Source: Candidatus Desantisbacteria bacterium CG1_02_49_89
GTDB taxonomy: Bacteria > Desantisbacteria > UBA1551
Assembly (NCBI GenBank): GCA_001871075.1
Contig: MNUP01000010.1
Span: 1-26,748 of the forward strand
Reading direction: 5' to 3'
DNA length: 26,748 bases
Positions 2,163 to 25,568 of this stretch are shown here, piece after piece. Position numbers and translations under genes: made by a program. Each line of letters begins with the position of its first letter. Position 1 is the first letter of the stretch. The notes below the pieces were generated by a model that saw only the letters and a list, made by a program, of their open reading frames with translations, did no database searches and was not told where the DNA came from.

Positions 2163-3788
2163 TCACTTTAATTTTGACATTTTCAAAGAAGACCTGACAC
2201 GTTTGCTTTTATTATTTATTTTTTTAGCTGCTTCTTTAGCTACGATTCTTACACATTCATCCGAATCATTTTTTATAGTATAATTTAAATGTTTTAACAC
2301 AGATTTATCGCCAATATTGCCAAGAACCTCTGCAACAACCAACCTGGTAGAATCCTTCCAATCCTTTAATGCTTTAATTAGAAATGGGATTGCTGCTGGA
2401 CCGATATTGTATATAGCTGTGGATATACTGATCTCGACTGATACATCTTTATGATTTAAGGCATTAATTAGCGCCGGGACGGCATCTTTTGCTTCTGGGC
2501 CAATTTTACCTAAGGCTTCAGCAGCGTACATTTTGTTTGTTCTTTCTTCATCCTGTAATAGCTCGACTAATTCTGGGACTGCGTCTTTTGCGGCAGAGCC
2601 AATTTTACCTAAGGCGAAAGCGGCATCACTTCTAACATCACCAACATCTTCGTATTCAGGCTTATGTTTTAATGCTTCAATTAACATTGGAACTGCGTCT
2701 TTTGCGGCAGGACCAATATACCCTAATGCTATAATATAATCTTTACAATCTCTTATATCCTTATTCTCATACTCGTTTTTTAATGCTTCAACTAATACCG
2801 GGACTGCGTCTTTTGCTGTTGGACCAATTTTGCCTAATGCTCTTGCAGCGCTTTTTCTGACATCAGAATCTTCATATTCGTTTTTTAATACTTTGATTAA
2901 CGCTGGGATTGTACCTTTTACCTCAGAACCAATGTTACCTAATGCTTCAGCAGCATATTGTTTAACATTCCCATACTCATAATTTAATACGTTTATTAAC
3001 GCCGGGACGGCATCTTTTGCTTCTGGGCCAATTTTACCTAAAGCCTTAGCAGCTTCACTTATGACTTCTTCATCACTGTCATCTTCATTTTTCAATGCTT
3101 CAATCAACACAGGAATCACGGATTTGTCGCGCATTTTTCCAAGGGCTTCGGCAGCGCTGGATCTGACCCACTCTTCCTCATCCTTTAATGCTTCAATCAG
3201 CGCAGGGATTGCAGATGGATCGCCGATTTCACCCAAAGCATATACTACCATCCGCCTAAAATTTTCCTTATCTTTCAATAACTCGATCAACGCTGGAACT
3301 GCATCTTTTGCGCCAATGTCGGCCAAGGCTTCTGCGGCACATCCTATAACAAAATGATCTTTATCCTTTAATGCCTCTATCAACACTAGCTTTGCATCAC
3401 TTGCTCTAATTTTACCTAAAGTTTTAGCAGCAAATCCTCTGGCATCCCCGCTCTCCTGTTCATCTTTTAATATTTTAATAAATGATGAAGTTATATCATT
3501 TGGTACAGACCAAATATTTCTTAAAGCAATAGCGGCAACCATCCTGACAATATAATTTTTATCTTTACATGCTTCAAGCAACACTGGGCGTGCGTAAAAA
3601 CCAATACGACTCAAAGCTCGGGTAATACTATCTATAACATCTTCGTTATAATTATCTTTCCTTAATACTTCTTGCAAAATAGGAATAATGGAAGTATTAC
3701 CCCATTCTTTTAAAGAATCAGCAGCTTCAATTACAATCTCAGGTACCTCGCTATTAAGTGCTTTTATAATATCTTCTTTTTGTTTCAT
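2163..3788 (-). CDS. HEAT-repeat (PBS-lyase-like) scaffold protein
   Basis: A 541-residue protein made almost entirely of HEAT-like helical repeats of about 30-40 residues. The recurring pattern is (D/K)AVPALI(E/N)(A/V)L then AA(E/K)ALG(K/N)IG. There are roughly fourteen units, and no signal peptide or transmembrane segment. Such solenoids act as protein-binding scaffolds; the partner cannot be read from sequence. Neighbouring repeats are close even at DNA level: a 42-nt stretch at 2472-2513 recurs without change at 3000-3041, implying recent internal duplication or gene conversion. The C-terminus ends in a basic tail. The gene is AT-rich compared with flanking ilvB and ilvN and follows the MITE-like element, so it looks acquired. 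The ATG has a short AAGGT site upstream. Confidence 0.85.
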   Translation of the reverse strand: MKQKEDIIKALNSEVPEIVIEAADSLKEWGNTSIIPILQEVLRKDNYNEDVIDSITRALSRIGFYARPVLLEACKDKNYIVRMVAAIALRNIWSVPNDITSSFIKILKDEQESGDARGFAAKTLGKIRASDAKLVLIEALKDKDHFVIGCAAEALADIGAKDAVPALIELLKDKENFRRMVVYALGEIGDPSAIPALIEALKDEEEWVRSSAAEALGKMRDKSVIPVLIEALKNEDDSDEEVISEAAKALGKIGPEAKDAVPALINVLNYEYGNVKQYAAEALGNIGSEVKGTIPALIKVLKNEYEDSDVRKSAARALGKIGPTAKDAVPVLVEALKNEYENKDIRDCKDYIIALGYIGPAAKDAVPMLIEALKHKPEYEDVGDVRSDAAFALGKIGSAAKDAVPELVELLQDEERTNKMYAAEALGKIGPEAKDAVPALINALNHKDVSVEISISTAIYNIGPAAIPFLIKALKDWKDSTRLVVAEVLGNIGDKSVLKHLNYTIKNDSDECVRIVAKEAAKKINNKSKRVRSSLKMSKLK

Positions 3789-9348: not shown

Positions 9349-10338
9349 TTAGTTTTGTCCTAGTTTTATTCCTTTTATAAGCGGGTGGCCGGCAAGGTAT
9401 TCCTTCGCTGTCATTACCCGCTTGCCTTCCGGCTGCAGTTCCAGGATCGAAAGAATGCCTTTGCCTGTGGAAATAAGGATCTCATCTGCTTTTATATCAA
9501 TGATCTCTCCCGATGGTTTTGCAAGGCTGAAGCCTTGCCCTACGTAAACCGATGATCTAAAGATCTTAAGGCGTTTGCCTTCTAAAAAAGTAAACGCGGA
9601 AGGTTCTGGATCCAGGCCCCTGATAAGGTTGTGTATTTCCTGCGCCGGCTTTGACCAGTCTATCCTGCAGTCCTCTTTCTTTATCACGGGCGCGAGGGAA
9701 AAACTGCCTTCTCCGAAGCTTTCGTTCGGAGTCCGTATTCCCCCGATGGACATCGGGGGACATCGGACCTGCTTCCTATAGGAAGCGCTGCCGGATTCAA
9801 CCATCTTCAGGGTTTCGCACAGGAGCTGCACCCCTTCTAAAGACATCTTCTGCTCAAGGCTTCCCTTTGTATCGCCAGGCAGTATCTCCATTTCTTTCTG
9901 CAGGATCATGTCGCCGGTGTCTATGCCCTCGTCCATCCGCATCGTTGTCAGGCCTGTTTTTTTCATTCCCCTGATAACGCTCCAAGCGATCGGCTCAGGT
10001 CCCCGCAGCTCGGGGAGCAAAGACGCGTGCAGGTTAACACAGCCCTTTGCCGGGATTTTCAATATTTCCTTCGTTAGTATGTGGCCGCTCGCAACCACAA
10101 CTATCAGGTCCGGCTTCAGTTCTTTCAGCCTGTCCGTGGCCTCGGAGATCTTTTCCGGCTGCAGGACAGGAATGCCCAGCTGTCCTGCCGCGAATTTCAC
10201 GGGGGGCGCGGAGACCTTCATGCCCCTGCCCTTCGGTTTGTCGGGCTGGGTCACGACGCAGGCCACCCCATACGCCTTTGCTATCATGTTCAGGGACGGC
10301 AGGGCAAACTGCGGCGTCCCCATGAAAATAATCCGCAT
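9349..10338 (-). CDS. fmt: Methionyl-tRNA formyltransferase with repeat insertions
   Basis: Transfers a formyl group from 10-formyl-tetrahydrofolate to initiator Met-tRNA in the cytosol. Catalytic Asn102 and His104 in VNLHASLLP and Asp140 in DEGIDTGDM are all present. The N-terminal hydrolase fold and C-terminal OB-like domain (LELQPEGKRVM) are intact. At 329 residues it is slightly longer than the usual ~310-315. Two hairpin repeats explain the excess. Residues ~185-209 are encoded by a chain of three palindromes at 9712-9786, and residues ~267-273 (GQGFSLA) by the palindrome GCAAGGCTGAAGCCTTGC at 9521-9538. Both lie in loops: the first in the linker region before the KEDCRIDW segment, the second inside the C-terminal domain. 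GGAGG precedes the ATG. Confidence 0.93.
   Translation of the reverse strand: MRIIFMGTPQFALPSLNMIAKAYGVACVVTQPDKPKGRGMKVSAPPVKFAAGQLGIPVLQPEKISEATDRLKELKPDLIVVVASGHILTKEILKIPAKGCVNLHASLLPELRGPEPIAWSVIRGMKKTGLTTMRMDEGIDTGDMILQKEMEILPGDTKGSLEQKMSLEGVQLLCETLKMVESGSASYRKQVRCPPMSIGGIRTPNESFGEGSFSLAPVIKKEDCRIDWSKPAQEIHNLIRGLDPEPSAFTFLEGKRLKIFRSSVYVGQGFSLAKPSGEIIDIKADEILISTGKGILSILELQPEGKRVMTAKEYLAGHPLIKGIKLGQN
9521..9538. repeat. Hairpin repeat inside fmt (GCAAGGCT..AGCCTTGC)
   Basis: A perfect 8-bp stem with a GA loop, in frame in fmt, encoding part of VGQGFSLAKP. A related CAGGGCT..AGCCCTG hairpin lies between thiL and scpB at about 19027-19043. Confidence 0.65.
9712..9786. repeat. Triple-hairpin repeat inside fmt
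   Basis: Three adjacent palindromes: TCCGAA..TTCGGA (9712-9730); GTCCG..CCCCCGATG-GA-CATCGGGGG..CGGAC (9731-9768); GCTTCCTATAGGAAGC (9771-9786). Together they add about 25 codons without a stop or frameshift. Confidence 0.7.
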
Positions 10339-15345: not shown

Positions 15346-15450
15346 AGTTATAAATTATGAGTTATGAATTATGAATTAACTTCATGGTATTAAATTTAAA
15401 TAAAGATCCTTGTTTTTGACTCATAACTCATCATTCATAATTCATAATTG
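15346..15450. repeat. TTATGAA heptamer inverted element, copy C2
   Basis: Same layout as 12573-12675: left heptamers 15347-15379, core TTCATGGTATTAAATTTAAA and ATCCTTGTTTTTG (15406-15418), right reverse heptamers 15418-15449. Most positions match copy C1. The tsaB stop codon (TGA in ..TTATGAATT) lies inside the right arm. Confidence 0.85.
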
Positions 15451-16305
15451 GGGTTGAATCGATGAGTGTATGTCCGGTTCCCTGACATAAACCGGCTTTA
15501 ATCTAAAAAGATCGTCGCCCTTCCTGTTCTTCTGCAATTTCCTGTAACCTTCAAAAGCAATAGTGCCTGCTTTCGGGCGCCACAGTTCTTCAGGCGCGAA
15601 TATTGCCTTACCGCCGAGTTTTTCTTTTATCGCGTCCCCGTATATCCTTACTGCATTGCCGATAAATACCGTCGGACGTCGGACGTCGGACGTCGTAAGT
15701 AAATTCAGTAAATCCTCAATGCTTAATACTGAATCTTTCATTACTTTTCTTAACTTTGAGCTTCTGTCCTGTATACTTATACACTTATCCACTTGTCCAC
15801 TTATCAACTTGTTCCCTTGTAAACTTGTAAACTTGTAAACTTGTAAACTGTATAAGGAAGTATAGACCTGCTGTTTCCTCGCGTCCGTTATCACGCATAT
15901 TTTAAATCCCCCGCCATCCCCCCTTTCATAAAGGGGGGTAAGAGGGGATTTTTCATTTTTTTTGCTGGATACCGCATTTAAAGCAATCACATCCAGCGTT
16001 CCCACGGCTACTATCGGAACATCCAACGCCTGCGCGAGCGCTTTCGCTGAAGCCACTCCAACGCGCAGGCCCGTGTAACTGCCCGGGCCAATGGATACGG
16101 CAACAGCATTGATGTCCCGGATCTTCAGCTTGTTTTTTTTCAGGATCCTGTCAATGAAGAATACCAGCTTGGAGGAATGCTCCCGGGGAGTTCTTTCGCT
16201 TGTTTCATCAAGTAATCTACCGCGGTCAGCCAGGCCAACGCTGCAGTATTCCCCGCTTGTATCGATCCCAAGAACTACGAAGCATTTTTTGACGCTGATT
16301 TTCAC
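15442..16305 (-). CDS. tsaB: tRNA t6A biosynthesis protein TsaB with three repeat insertions
   Basis: TsaB is the ASKHA-fold partner of TsaD and TsaE in N6-threonylcarbamoyladenosine formation on ANN-decoding tRNAs. The motif SIGPGSYTGLRVG (71-83) and the N-terminal LGIDTSGEYCSVGL are typical. At 287 residues it is roughly 50 longer than the usual ~220-240. Three in-frame repeat blocks account for this: residues ~119-134 (KSPLTPLYERG, from a CCCCCCTTT..AAAGGGGGG hairpin), ~151-179 (a run of about ten ACTTGTAA-type octamers), and ~203-212 (CGGACGT heptamers). All are stop-free. The start is GTG at 16305 inside a GTGAAAATCAGCGTC word, and the TGA stop lies in the TTATGAA repeat. The next gene upstream is tsaE. 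Confidence 0.88.
   Translation of the reverse strand: MKISVKKCFVVLGIDTSGEYCSVGLADRGRLLDETSERTPREHSSKLVFFIDRILKKNKLKIRDINAVAVSIGPGSYTGLRVGVASAKALAQALDVPIVAVGTLDVIALNAVSSKKNEKSPLTPLYERGDGGGFKICVITDARKQQVYTSLYSLQVYKFTSLQGNKLISGQVDKCISIQDRSSKLRKVMKDSVLSIEDLLNLLTTSDVRRPTVFIGNAVRIYGDAIKEKLGGKAIFAPEELWRPKAGTIAFEGYRKLQKNRKGDDLFRLKPVYVREPDIHSSIQPQL
15671..15696. repeat. CGGACGT heptamer array inside tsaB
   Basis: About three and a half tandem copies of CGGACGT, in frame, encoding part of LTTSDVRRPT. Confidence 0.7.
15769..15850. repeat. ACTTGTAA octamer array inside tsaB
   Basis: About ten degenerate octamers of the type (A/C)ACTT(A/G)T(A/C); the four nearest 15850 are almost invariant (ACTTGTAA) and the rest diverge. 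In frame, adding about 27 residues rich in Ser, Leu, Lys and Gln. Similar words lie at 25482-25509 downstream of the ABC ATPase repeat. Confidence 0.75.
15904..15951. repeat. CCCCCCTTT..AAAGGGGGG hairpin inside tsaB
   Basis: AATCCCC and ATCCCCCCTTT pair around CAT with AAAGGGGGG and GGGGATT. The coding product KSPLTPLYERG is, from memory, a peptide seen where this kind of palindrome has entered reading frames in many bacteria. Confidence 0.75.
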
Positions 16306-16419: not shown

Positions 16420-16902
16420 TTATTTCGTACTTTCCTCGCCCATCCTTTCCAGGTGGGCGAAGTCTCGCCCGCTGTAAGACGGACGGAGTGATTTCGTGGA
16501 AATCAGTAATTCTCTTTTATTTTTGCCTAAGATCTCAATTTTTATTCTAACGCATTCCGCCGGCAGCAGTTCTTTCAGCCTTTCCGCCCATTCGATGACC
16601 GCTGCGCCGTCACCGTAAAAAAATTCTTCATATCCCAGCGCGCGGACATCATCCGTGCTGTTAAGGCGGTACAGGTCAAAGTGGTAAAGAGGTATCCTGC
16701 CCTTGTATATGCTCATGAGCACGAACGTGGGACTTATTACCTTGCCTTTGACACCCAGGCCTTTTGCCAGGCCCTGGATGAACGTGGTCTTGCCGCTTCC
16801 GAGGCTCCCTGTCAGGCAGAGTATATCGCCGGCTTTCAGTTTTTTAGCAAAGCCCTTAGCAAATTTTTGTGTTTCTTTCGCACTGTTTGTTATTATTTTC
16901 AT
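16420..16902 (-). CDS. tsaE: tRNA t6A biosynthesis ATPase TsaE with repeat-derived C-terminus
   Basis: TsaE is the P-loop ATPase that supports TsaB-TsaD in t6A formation. Walker A TGSLGSGKTT (31-40), the switch-like segment VISPTFVLMSIY, LYHFDLYRL and the Walker B-like AVIEWAERL are all visible. At 160 residues it is slightly longer than the family norm. Residues ~133-160 (from about LISTK to the end, including the stop) are encoded by the double-hairpin repeat at 16437-16485 and the adjacent TTTCGTGG word, so the original C-terminus appears replaced or extended. No clear ribosome-binding site is visible at the ATG. tsaE and tsaB are neighbours, separated by a repeat-filled gap of 114 bp. Confidence 0.9.
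   Translation of the reverse strand: MKIITNSAKETQKFAKGFAKKLKAGDILCLTGSLGSGKTTFIQGLAKGLGVKGKVISPTFVLMSIYKGRIPLYHFDLYRLNSTDDVRALGYEEFFYGDGAAVIEWAERLKELLPAECVRIKIEILGKNKRELLISTKSLRPSYSGRDFAHLERMGEESTK
16437..16485. repeat. Double-hairpin element, copy 2 (in tsaE)
   Basis: CGCCC..GGGCG (16437-16459), spacer AAGTCT, then CGCCC..GGACG (16466-16485). It is the inverted near-copy of 25387-25434: about two substitutions and one indel over 48 bp. It forms part of the tsaE reading frame. Confidence 0.75.
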
Positions 16903-16961: not shown

Positions 16962-17750
16962 TTAGCCTGCCGCTGCGCGCTTCCCTTCTTCCGATAAAAG
17001 GAAACAAGGGTCTTCTTCAAGCTTTCTAAGGGTAAAATCCATCATTTCTCTTGCCTTGATAAGCTTTAAAGATGCGTTACCGGACAGGCCGGCTTTCATT
17101 ATTCCCCGGCTGAGCAACAACGGTTCCATCTTCGGAAAATCCCGCACGATCCCGTAACGGTGTATTTTTGTCCTGGCAATGATCTTCCTGCCGCTTCTAT
17201 CTATTATAACGGCATCCACAGGTTCCGGCTGTAACTGGTAATCAACCCCGGCAAGCTCTTCCGCGCAGTGGAACGTGGTAAAACAAGCCAGCCCGATGCC
17301 TATCATAAGCACGTAACCGTTATCCGCTGAACATAATTTGTCGTAAGGGCTGCCCTTGCCGCACGGCGTGCTGCAGAGCTGGTGGCCTTCTGTCAGAAAT
17401 TCCGCCTGCCTGCCTATTGCCGCGACAGAATGCGTGGGGCCCAGGCTCCTGACCGCGTTTTTCCTTTTCCTGAAGGTCTCGGGGATCGTCCCTGTCCAGC
17501 AGGGAGTATTCAGAACATCGAACACAGGCGGGCTGGCAGCTGTCAGCTGCGCAGAACCTGTCAGGGTCGGCACCAAAACGGTTCCGCTCGCGCCAACCGT
17601 TTCTATTAAAGAGTCTATGACGGCATCCGCCCCGCCTTCCACCCAGCCGAAGCTTTTCAAAGAACTGTGGACGAGAACATTTGATCCTTCTTTTAGCCCG
17701 GTATTTTCAACAAGATCCCTTTTTATTTCCTGCTTTGTTATTATATTCAT
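16962..17750 (-). CDS. Aminoglycoside N(3)-acetyltransferase (AAC(3)/YokD) family protein
   Basis: A 262-residue acetyl-CoA-dependent N-acetyltransferase of the antibiotic-NAT fold. Typical segments: LKEGSNVLVHSSLKSFGWVEGGADAVIDSL (14-43), GTVLVPTLTG, PSxTHS-like SLGPTHSVAAIG, CGKGSPYDKL and the catalytic-region ELAGVDYQL. Homologues in non-clinical bacteria often act on sugars or nucleotide-sugar intermediates rather than antibiotics, so resistance should not be assumed. No ribosome-binding site stands out; the ATG directly follows GATTACGGTGATT words. The C-terminus (KRAAAG) is short. It sits between thiL and tsaE with no obvious functional link. Confidence 0.85.
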   Translation of the reverse strand: MNIITKQEIKRDLVENTGLKEGSNVLVHSSLKSFGWVEGGADAVIDSLIETVGASGTVLVPTLTGSAQLTAASPPVFDVLNTPCWTGTIPETFRKRKNAVRSLGPTHSVAAIGRQAEFLTEGHQLCSTPCGKGSPYDKLCSADNGYVLMIGIGLACFTTFHCAEELAGVDYQLQPEPVDAVIIDRSGRKIIARTKIHRYGIVRDFPKMEPLLLSRGIMKAGLSGNASLKLIKAREMMDFTLRKLEEDPCFLLSEEGKRAAAG

Positions 17751-17754
17751 AACG

Positions 17755-17835
17755 GGATTACGGTGATTATTAACTACTGATTACGGTGATTTTAGAATAG
17801 ATTACGGTGATTATAAATAAAAAATTGCGGTGATT
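17755..17835. repeat. GATTACGGTGATT word array
   Basis: Four copies of (G)ATTACGGTGATT or TTGCGGTGATT are spaced by short AT-rich stretches between thiL and the AAC(3)-like gene. They end at the thiL stop codon. Same word as 762-840 and 5893-5940. Confidence 0.75.
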
Positions 17836-18979
17836 AAAAGTGCGAGAAGCCTAAATTTTTAGCGGTTCTCTTTCTGCCCTTATTGTCAATGATAAAAAGA
17901 CTTTTGTCTTTTATGATCTCGCCGACTGCCGTAACAGGAGTGCCGGTCAATCTTGGCACCAATGCCAGGACCTTCTTTAATTTAGCCGGCGGGACAGTGA
18001 AAACAAGCTCGTAATCCTCACCGCCTGTCAGTACTAACTTACGACTTACGACGTACGACGTACGACGGATAAGTTGCTCTGAAACAGGGATCATGTCTTC
18101 ATGGATCTTGGCGCCTGTGCCGGATTCCTGGCAGATGAACCCAACCGAAGCAAGAAGCCCGTCGCTTGAATCTATCATTGCGGTTGCCAGCTTGTTCTTA
18201 GCGATTATCCCCGCCTCTTTTACTCTTGGGCTTGGCATTAAATGCCTTTTTATAAGATATTCGTGGTTTTGGCGATGCACGATGCACGATGCACGATGAA
18301 CGGTTTTTTTAAGGAGCTCAAAGCCAGCCGCGGAGTCGCCGCAGGACCCTGTTACGCAGATCATATCTCCGGGCCTGGCACCCTTGCGCAGAAGAAGGTT
18401 CTTCTTTTCAACTTCGCCGATCACGGTCGTATCTATTATTAAAGAATCCGATTTGCTGATATCACCGCCGATAACCTGAACGCCTTTACTGCAATGGGAC
18501 AGTCCCTCCCGATGACCATCGGGATGGGACAGTCCCTGACCTGCGGCGTTCATCCCGCGGTATAGATCATCTATGAATCCAACGTCTTCTTTACCTGTCA
18601 ATCCCAGCGTTACAAGCGCGTATTTTGGCTTCCCGCCCATTGAAGCGATGTCGCTCATGTTTACAGCCATCACCTTCCATCCTAACATGAACCCGTACGA
18701 CGTACGACCCGCAAGGGCGACGTACGACGGCAAACGGGCAAGGAAATGCACGCCCTCAATAAGGATATCGGTAGTCCAAAGTAAACATTTACCGCGGGAA
18801 ATTGGAATAACGGCAGTATCATCGCCAATTCCGATCAAACCACGTGTAACGTGCCCGCTCCGATTTATATCGGGGCGAGGTCTCGCCCCGACTGACGTCG
18901 GGGCGGATAACGTGTTACGTGTAACGCGGCTACGGATGCGGTCAATGAGCCCAAATTCCCCTAAATCCTTGATTTTCAT
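17834..18979 (-). CDS. thiL: Thiamine-monophosphate kinase with five in-frame repeat blocks
   Basis: ThiL phosphorylates thiamine monophosphate to the diphosphate cofactor that, for example, IlvB uses. Conserved motifs all survive: GIGDDTAVI, TDILIEGVHF, NMSDIASMGGKP, VIGGDISKSD, TGSCGDSAAGFELL, MIDSSDGLLAS and LTGGEDYELVF. At 381 residues it is about 50-60 above the usual length. Repeat-encoded blocks: residues ~18-46 (double hairpin plus ACGTGTAACGTG words), ~82-97 (GTACGAC), ~145-162 (three GGGAC/CCCGATG palindromes), ~226-237 (CGATGCA) and ~303-313 (GTACGAC). Each lies between motifs and keeps the frame open, so I call an intact gene rather than a pseudogene; activity is untested. No clear ribosome-binding site precedes the ATG. 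Confidence 0.88.
   Translation of the reverse strand: MKIKDLGEFGLIDRIRSRVTRNTLSAPTSVGARPRPDINRSGHVTRGLIGIGDDTAVIPISRGKCLLWTTDILIEGVHFLARLPSYVALAGRTSYGFMLGWKVMAVNMSDIASMGGKPKYALVTLGLTGKEDVGFIDDLYRGMNAAGQGLSHPDGHREGLSHCSKGVQVIGGDISKSDSLIIDTTVIGEVEKKNLLLRKGARPGDMICVTGSCGDSAAGFELLKKTVHRASCIVHRQNHEYLIKRHLMPSPRVKEAGIIAKNKLATAMIDSSDGLLASVGFICQESGTGAKIHEDMIPVSEQLIRRTSYVVSRKLVLTGGEDYELVFTVPPAKLKKVLALVPRLTGTPVTAVGEIIKDKSLFIIDNKGRKRTAKNLGFSHF
18042..18070. repeat. GTACGAC heptamer array inside thiL (block 5)
   Basis: Four tandem heptamers TTACGAC/TTACGAC/GTACGAC/GTACGAC in frame, encoding roughly RRTSYVVSRK just before the LTGGEDYELVF motif. Confidence 0.7.
18273..18298. repeat. CGATGCA heptamer array inside thiL (block 4)
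   Basis: About three and a half copies of CGATGCA in frame, encoding HRASCIVHR after the GDSAAGFELL motif. Confidence 0.75.
18496..18536. repeat. Triple-palindrome repeat inside thiL (block 3)
   Basis: GGGACAGTCCC (18496-18506), CCCGATGACCATCGGG (18508-18523) and GGGACAGTCCC again (18526-18536). In frame, encoding GLSHPDGHREGLSH before VIGGD. Confidence 0.75.
18693..18729. repeat. GTACGAC words inside thiL (block 2)
   Basis: GTACGACGTACGAC, a short CGCAAGGGC spacer, and GACGTACGACGG, in frame, encoding roughly PSYVALAGRTSY between GVHF and NMSDIA. Confidence 0.65.
18841..18934. repeat. Double-hairpin element, copy 3, flanked by ACGTGTAAC words (in thiL, block 1)
   Basis: Hairpins at 18856-18877 and 18884-18905 around spacer AGGTCT, flanked by ACGTGTAACGTG on one side and ACGTGTTACGTGTAACG on the other. 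All in frame. It is the inverted copy of 19050-19099, differing at two of 50 positions. Confidence 0.85.
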
Positions 18980-18987
18980 ACGAGTTT

Positions 18988-19048
18988 AACCACAGGTTAA
19001 CACAGTTTAACACAGTTTAGATACATCAGGGCTGAAGCCCTGAGTTAT
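18988..19048. repeat. TTAACACAG words and CAGGGCT hairpin
   Basis: AACCACAGGTTAACACAG and TTTAACACAG words run to about 19014, followed by a CAGGGCT..AGCCCTG hairpin (about 19027-19043) and then the double hairpin. Confidence 0.65.
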
Positions 19049-19049
19049 C

Positions 19050-19099
19050 CGCCCCGATGTCAGTCGGGGCGAGACCTCGCCCCGATATAAATCGGGGCG
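19050..19099. repeat. Double-hairpin element, copy 4
   Basis: CGCCCCGATG..CGGGGCG (19050-19071), spacer AGACCT, CGCCCCGATA..CGGGGCG (19078-19099). Best-formed copy in the window, located in the scpB-thiL gap. Confidence 0.85.
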
Positions 19100-19108
19100 G
19101 GCAATAAA

Positions 19109-19156
19109 ATTCCTTGTTGTTGCGTTGACACGTTGATACGTTGACACGCTGACACT
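19109..19156. repeat. ACGTTGAC octamer array with TTCCTTG core
   Basis: Core ATTCCTTGTTGTTG (19109-19122) is followed by four octamers of ACG(T/C)TGA(C/T). A related core and octamers lie at 23323-23372. Confidence 0.7.
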
Positions 19157-19160
19157 GCAT

Positions 19161-25363: not shown

Positions 25364-25386
25364 ACAAGATTTCCACGAAATCACTC

Positions 25387-25434
25387 CGCCCGTCTTTCAG
25401 CGGGCGAGACTTCGCCCACCTGAAAGGATGGGCG
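25387..25434. repeat. Double-hairpin element, copy 5
   Basis: CGCCCGTC..GGGCG (25387-25406), spacer AGACTT, CGCCCACC..GGGCG (25413-25434). It is an inverted near-copy of the element in tsaE and is likewise flanked by a TTTCGTGG-type word (25366-25382). Confidence 0.8.
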
Positions 25435-25439
25435 AGGAA

Positions 25440-25568
25440 AGCACGAAAAGATTCAGCCACGGATTTCCACGGATTTCAACTTTGTATATAAACTTGTGTA
25501 CTTGTAAGCTATATTTAAATTTCAACTTTTAAAATTTACAATTTGAAATTTGCAATTTGCAATGTTTT
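25440..25568. repeat. Mixed word arrays upstream of the ABC ATPase
   Basis: CCACGGATTT words (25459-25478), ACTTGTGT/ACTTGTAA octamers (25492-25508) and CAATTTGAAATTTGCAATTT-type heptamers (about 25539-25564). No gene visible; the last words abut the stop of the YifB-like gene. Confidence 0.6.

Follow-up and report, generated by a model that had tools for sequence, protein, structure and literature searches.

Results

The thiL gene of Candidatus Desantisbacteria bacterium CG1_02_49_89 raises the question of how several repeats can lie within the reading frame of one biosynthetic enzyme, and of what this has done to the enzyme. The gene was studied within a window of 26,748 nucleotides (contig MNUP01000010.1), the whole stretch of DNA analysed here. 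A sequence-only reading of the window had placed five repeat blocks in thiL, at 18042-18070, 18273-18298, 18496-18536, 18693-18729 and 18841-18934. We found all five at about these positions, between conserved ThiL motifs and in one stop-free frame, and the protein is about as much longer than usual as had been estimated (50-60 residues), with 381 aa against a 320-position profile and about 60 extra. The features, with sites numbered along the protein, are as follows.

17834..18979 (-): single-copy thiL, encoding a thiamine-phosphate kinase of 381 aa, with five repeat-derived segments
18836..18931 (-): site 1 (aa 17-48), a run of (TAACGTG)n heptamers in which a 52-bp double-hairpin palindrome is nested
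18855..18906 (+): the 52-bp palindrome CCGCTCCGATTTATATCGGGGCGAGGTCTCGCCCCGACTGACGTCGGGGCGG within site 1, with ACGTGTAACG in both flanks
18686..18733 (-): site 2 (aa 83-98), a heptamer array of the ACGACGT class that has a small hairpin at its core
18485..18541 (-): site 3 (aa 147-165), GGGACTGTCCC hairpin dimer
18266..18307 (-): site 4 (aa 225-238), a heptamer array, (CGATGCA)n, that encodes the peptide VHRASCIVH; TRF array 18273-18302
18035..18073 (-): site 5 (aa 303-315), (TACGACG)n heptamer array in place of the native loop, peptide RRTSYVVSR; TRF array 18040-18067
18980..19160 (no strand): thiL-scpB intergenic gap, filled by repeat classes also present in thiL

The thiL product scores 265 bits in a profile search with TIGR01379 (curated cut-off 184.15) and has relatives of solved structure in the ThiL entries 1vqv/3c9r. 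It is the sole ThiL above the family cut-off in its own 2.48-Mb genome (G000), where its best match is itself at 100%; a ThiL scan of genome contigs returned two distant loci besides, and a scan of viral contigs for ThiL returned none. The motifs GIGDD, VNxSDIAxMG, GGD, DxSDGL and GGEDYEL are intact in the 381-aa protein, which also matches at 39 of the 40 columns that are at least 90% conserved among about 30 ThiLs from other phyla. We compared the gene with that of G001, the only other available genome of the phylum, found by genus-to-phylum searches and belonging to a sister family. Core differences by codon position 1/2/3 amount to 0.28/0.19/0.65, and this excess at third positions is the mark of purifying selection on the core. 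Judged by these features the 381-aa ThiL has an intact core and is probably a working enzyme with the predicted kinase activity. ThiC was found in both genomes. A PF02581 search gave no convincing ThiE in G000 (93.5% complete) and a convincing one only in G001, so that the pathway around ThiL is incompletely represented in G000; ThiE may lie outside the assembled sequence or have been replaced. Rfam searches gave zero family matches in the window.

For the length comparison we counted residues between fixed anchors, with 29 ThiLs from other phyla as outgroup. The window's ThiL has 33, 19, 25, 20 and 16 residues at sites 1 to 5, against outgroup ranges of 8-16 at site 1, 8-10 (one 14) at site 2, exactly 10 in 29/29 at site 3, 10-37 at site 4 and 12-27 at site 5. 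The gain of about 21, 10 and 15 residues at sites 1, 2 and 3 identifies these, on the alignment, as true insertions. Site 4 lies by the same comparison within a stretch that is naturally variable in length, and the repeat of site 5 stands in place of the native loop, since its 16 residues bring no net gain over the outgroup median of 18. The description of all blocks as insertions is in this way confirmed for sites 1-3 and needs correction for 18042-18070, which adds no length, and for 18273-18298, which falls in the variable stretch. Homologues without the repeats also lack the corresponding residues at sites 1-3, and thiL is single-copy and intact; the two observations that would count against the sequence-only reading, repeat-free homologues with the same residues or a decayed thiL beside an intact second copy, were therefore not made. 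The location of the five segments in loops of the three-dimensional structure is inferred mainly from the alignments because the structure model is poor (three sequences, mean pLDDT 53); the low-confidence stretches of this weak model (1-54, 70-103, 147-167, 213-243 and 300-322) cover all five sites.

Genome-wide figures come from samples of 1.05 Mb of G000 (about 42%) and 0.35 Mb of G001 (about 20%), both metagenome-type assemblies (150 and 130 contigs, respectively) on which ORF calling was crude. BLASTN of each block against the 1.05 Mb of G000 (E<=1, self-hits included) gave 113 hits for 18036-18070, 47 for 18268-18305, 17 for 18690-18731, 141 for 18838-18936 and just 9 for 18490-18540. 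Four of the five thiL blocks are dispersed repeats of their own genome. The GGGACTGTCCC hairpin dimer at site 3 is rarer than the repeats of the other four; beyond thiL, two GGGACTGTCCC...GGGACTGTCCC dimers were found in the sample, one within an ORF and one intergenic. Several distinct families do lie within the one enzyme, four rather than five because the blocks at 18042 and 18693 share an ACGACGT-class heptamer. The block at 18841-18934 proved to be a composite of TAACGTG heptamers with the 52-bp palindrome inside, and an inverted copy of the palindrome is located at 19049-19100 in the thiL-scpB gap, the inverted pair being 97% complementary over 60 nt. RNA folding of the two hairpin blocks gave z = -4.7 and -5.3, the latter for site 3; the other three blocks are not unusually structured. 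The repeat-encoded peptides of the predicted ThiL include VTRNTLSAPTSVGARPRPDINR and TSYVVSR.

Dispersed repeat accounts for 43% of intergenic versus 1.4% of genic bases in the G000 sample, and 59 of 878 sampled ORFs (about 7%) contain at least one inner repeat segment. The affected genes, many of which have housekeeping roles, include those for LeuRS, ValRS, GluRS, the CCA-adding enzyme, a HisA/HisF-type enzyme, LeuC, HypF, TsaB, a Mur ligase, Ddl and NadC. Under uniform placement, at least three segments in a gene of thiL's length has a probability of 2e-4, and the seven sampled genes that reach this number indicate that some genes are far more tolerant than others. Period-7 arrays number 188 in the 1.05 Mb (179 per Mb, 58 unit classes) and 0 in loci of other phyla that total 211 kb, which argues that the heptamer blocks of thiL are not due to chance. 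Within genes the arrays number about 50-60 per 0.9 Mb of coding sequence. The sense strand is open in 53 of 60 genic heptamer arrays versus 162 of 420 strands of non-genic arrays, a comparison that is partly circular because ORF calling itself requires an open frame.

The 52-bp palindrome consists of two GC-rich hairpins around GCGAGGTCTCGC. The 1.05 Mb contain 29 full copies, and 11 of these lie in called ORFs. Its flanks share a word of at least 7 bases in 34% of copies versus 4% for mismatched flanks, and the palindrome thus often sits within a tandem array or between short duplications. The length of the copies is 1 mod 3 in 10 of the 11 genic versus 9 of the 18 intergenic ones. A split-HSP search, in which in-frame inserts are bridged by gaps, found no repeat-linked frame break among the orthologue matches. 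Both this result and the mod-3 bias of the genic palindromes support a constraint on frame.

The ThiL of G001 has 415 aa and is about 65% identical to that of the window in the core. It is enlarged at all five sites (28, 19, 37, 30 and 32 residues), with sequences unlike those of the window: site 2 measures 19 residues in both members of the phylum, site 3 measures 25 in the window and 37 in G001. Repeat families with dozens of hits in G001 account for site 3 and for part of site 5, site 4 has a few hits, and no convincing copies of sites 1 and 2 were found in the 0.35-Mb sample. Recognisable repeats are present at two or three of the five sites of this protein, the repeat origin of sites 1 and 2 being unproven because their sequences are not multi-copy in the sample. 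At site 5 there is a GGGACTGT-type dimer that resembles site 3 of the window. A 75-bp stretch is shared by thiL (site 3) and tsaB of G001 (L078:3817-3891 and L078:7644-7718) with 74/75 identical positions in the same reading frame, which suggests recent copying. Only 2 period-7 arrays were found in the 0.35 Mb of G001 versus the 188 of G000. Since the sequences at the sites differ and heptamer arrays are near-absent from G001, the sites are common to both genomes and their content is lineage-specific. The genes of G001 with repeat segments include thiL, tsaB, topA, dprA, hypD and others.

A second gene of the window, tsaB, is also strongly affected and carries three repeat segments.

15442..16305 (-): tsaB, repeat segments at 15661-15704, 15799-15855 and 15901-15957

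Among these are 8-mer arrays, a heptamer array of CGTCGGA units and a repeat that codes for KSPLTPLYERGDGGG. The site at 15901-15957 is also filled in G001, by a different repeat, and the outgroup rows inspected show no comparable extra segment.

Discussion

Our results suggest that dispersed repeats of the genome's own families entered or overwrote loops of a working ThiL. We regard this account as probable. The sequences themselves show the identity of the repeats, their in-frame position, the intact enzyme core, the enlargement of all five sites in the sister family and the pattern across the genome; the translation and neutrality of the segments and their landing-pad history are the parts that we infer. 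The repeats would spread, or arise via slippage, and loop segments would be entered or overwritten by them, with survival limited to in-frame, stop-free events in tolerant loops. The segments are most likely translated as extra loops without a function of their own. Seven is not a multiple of three, and a heptamer array therefore gives the same cyclic seven-residue peptide in all three frames, so that the orientation of the array alone decides whether a stop appears. Once enlarged, a loop could accept more repeats, for example a palindrome into a heptamer array, and would form a landing pad that persists through lineage splits. The palindrome nested in the heptamer array at site 1 fits an enlarged loop that became a safe target. 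Site 3 is fixed in length in the 29 outgroup proteins and longer in the two members of the phylum. As far as two genomes can tell, this speaks for an enlargement in their ancestor, followed by turnover of the content, rather than for independent hits. Inherited landing pads in essential enzymes, where the loop is kept across two families, its content is overwritten repeatedly and heptamer arrays seed palindromes, may explain the pattern, and we put this forward tentatively.

The sharing of sites could also have come about by independent convergence, if the five sites are simply the few insert-tolerant loops of ThiL, filled separately in each lineage with no inherited landing pads. The outgroups lend this some weight, as sites 4 and 5 vary among them too (10-37 and 12-27 residues), and in one locus of another phylum (L148) a short GAATGCC heptamer run (x2.4) lies within an expanded ThiL site 4, a hint of the same process elsewhere. 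The argument is harder to sustain for site 3, exactly 10 residues in 29/29 outgroups, and for site 2, 8-10 in all but one, both being enlarged in the two members of the phylum. Five random positions would coincide within 6 columns with a probability of about 2.5e-5 under uniform placement, but of 1/56 to 1/3003 if 8-15 loops are tolerant. We consider convergence doubtful but a substantial possibility. The persistence of the enlarged sites in two families might instead mean that the inserted peptides were recruited for a function, such as partner binding or regulation; this is very unlikely given that, site by site, the two genomes have unrelated sequences and that similar peptides occur in many unrelated enzymes.

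The remaining alternatives concern the fate of the gene and its message. Bypassed segments form strong hairpins, and the blocks could be short introns cut from the mRNA, or be skipped by the ribosome like the mitochondrial byps, leaving an enzyme of normal size. Two blocks have strong hairpins of this kind, but the other three do not, and skipped segments need no control of frame or stops, yet all thiL blocks keep the frame, no repeat-linked break was seen in the orthologue matches and one length class mod 3 prevails among the genic palindromes; we think removal very improbable. That thiL is a decaying pseudogene gathering repeats like intergenic DNA might be suspected from its place among the ORFs richest in repeat segments, and from a hexamer coding score too low for the first-pass gene caller. 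The single copy, the intact motifs, the third-position bias of substitutions against G001 and the same condition of thiL in the sister family, again with its frame intact, leave little room for decay. Even less credible are contingency loci, in which 7-nt slippage of the heptamer arrays would toggle thiL by phase variation. The arrays share with known phase-variable genes a unit length that is not divisible by three, but those of thiL are imperfect and comprise no more than about 4 units, the gene serves biosynthesis, and tRNA synthetase genes, in which off-switching would be lethal, contain similar arrays.

If repeats were indeed taken up as loops of working enzymes, they offer a natural experiment that can tell which core-enzyme loops accept arbitrary peptides, and a route, open to testing, from non-coding DNA to protein sequence. 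Selfish palindromes that insert into genes are known in Rickettsia and, as a rarity, in the form of intragenic REPs; here the process would reach about 7% of sampled genes and involve several unrelated repeat classes, with the same sites enlarged in two families. The frame-independence of heptamer arrays would be a simple reason for arrays to act as the entry point.

Rickettsia palindromic elements (RPE) are dispersed palindromes found in frame in working genes and presumed to be tolerated at protein surfaces. The thiL case resembles these and the Wolbachia palindromic elements in having a dispersed palindrome in frame within ORFs (11 of 29 full copies of the 52-bp palindrome). It differs from RPE in that several unrelated classes, mainly heptamer arrays and some of them nested, occur in one gene, and in that the sister family has these sites filled anew with other sequences; no sequence relation was found. 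The intragenic repeats of R. conorii include RPE-4 and RPE-6, and a CGTC tag has been reported for some of its RPEs (PMC3733652). No such tag is present at the ends of our palindrome, which read TGC|CCG or TAT|CCG, and CGTC-tagged hairpins are not enriched in the G000 sample (19 versus 50 for control tags). The likeness to RPE that the sequence-only reading had drawn can for these reasons be kept as a functional one only. Small palindromes within housekeeping genes are likewise known as intragenic REPs, GTAG/CGTC-tagged and RAYT-mobilised; O. terrae uvrA carries double REP insertions, and in two Xanthomonas species recB holds different REPs at nearly the same position (PMC3733652). In contrast to GTAG REP/REPIN elements, those of thiL in the window have neither a GTAG nor a CGTC tag at their ends. 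On our best reading the thiL case would work like RPE and intragenic REPs; the lack of both tags is why we do not claim that it belongs to either.

Heptanucleotide repeats such as the cyanobacterial STRR, long simple sequence repeats and the Beggiatoaceae TAACTGA repeats are similar to our arrays in their period of 7, their many copies per genome and their mostly intergenic position. In coding regions, repeat units with a length divisible by three are the most to be expected, and the Beggiatoaceae TAACTGA repeats are mainly found at protein ends (PMC4679880). The genic arrays described here differ from the latter, as they often lie mid-enzyme and comprise dozens of unit classes. Compared with these systems, three things are new: a single enzyme combines several classes, the scale is larger, and sites are shared although their content differs.

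G000 has ten Y1_Tnp matches, and its GTAG hairpins number 74 versus about 26 for control tags; in G001 the repeat GTAGTGGCAGACCTTGGTCTGCC begins with GTAG. The flanks of the Y1_Tnp genes inspected carry other inverted repeats, some of them GGGACAG-like (L172), and neither the 52-bp palindrome, considered as a candidate partner of the transposase, nor the window's other elements were found among these. Y1/RAYT-type transposase genes are present in the genome, and the flanks inspected gave no link between them and the thiL elements. Two Y1_Tnp genes (L173 and L174) lie amid long arrays of TCAAACCTGAAGGTTTGAGTTACG-type hairpins, and these are likely a REP-RAYT system of the genome.

Other observations in the window

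16962-17750 (-): AAC(3) aminoglycoside N-acetyltransferase fold
2163-3788 (-): HEAT-repeat protein
16420-16902 (-): TsaE
9349-10338 (-): Fmt

The scores of the AAC(3)-fold protein are well below the curated cut-offs, which makes a resistance function doubtful. The HEAT-repeat gene has at least 10 degenerate repeats of about 93-111 nt and a higher AT content than the DNA around it. A repeat makes up the C-terminal end of TsaE and is also found inverted in the 25368-25448 intergenic stretch. Fmt contains a repeat-like segment, VGQGFSLAKP, and its G001 orthologue differs at the same place, possibly making this a further shared site.
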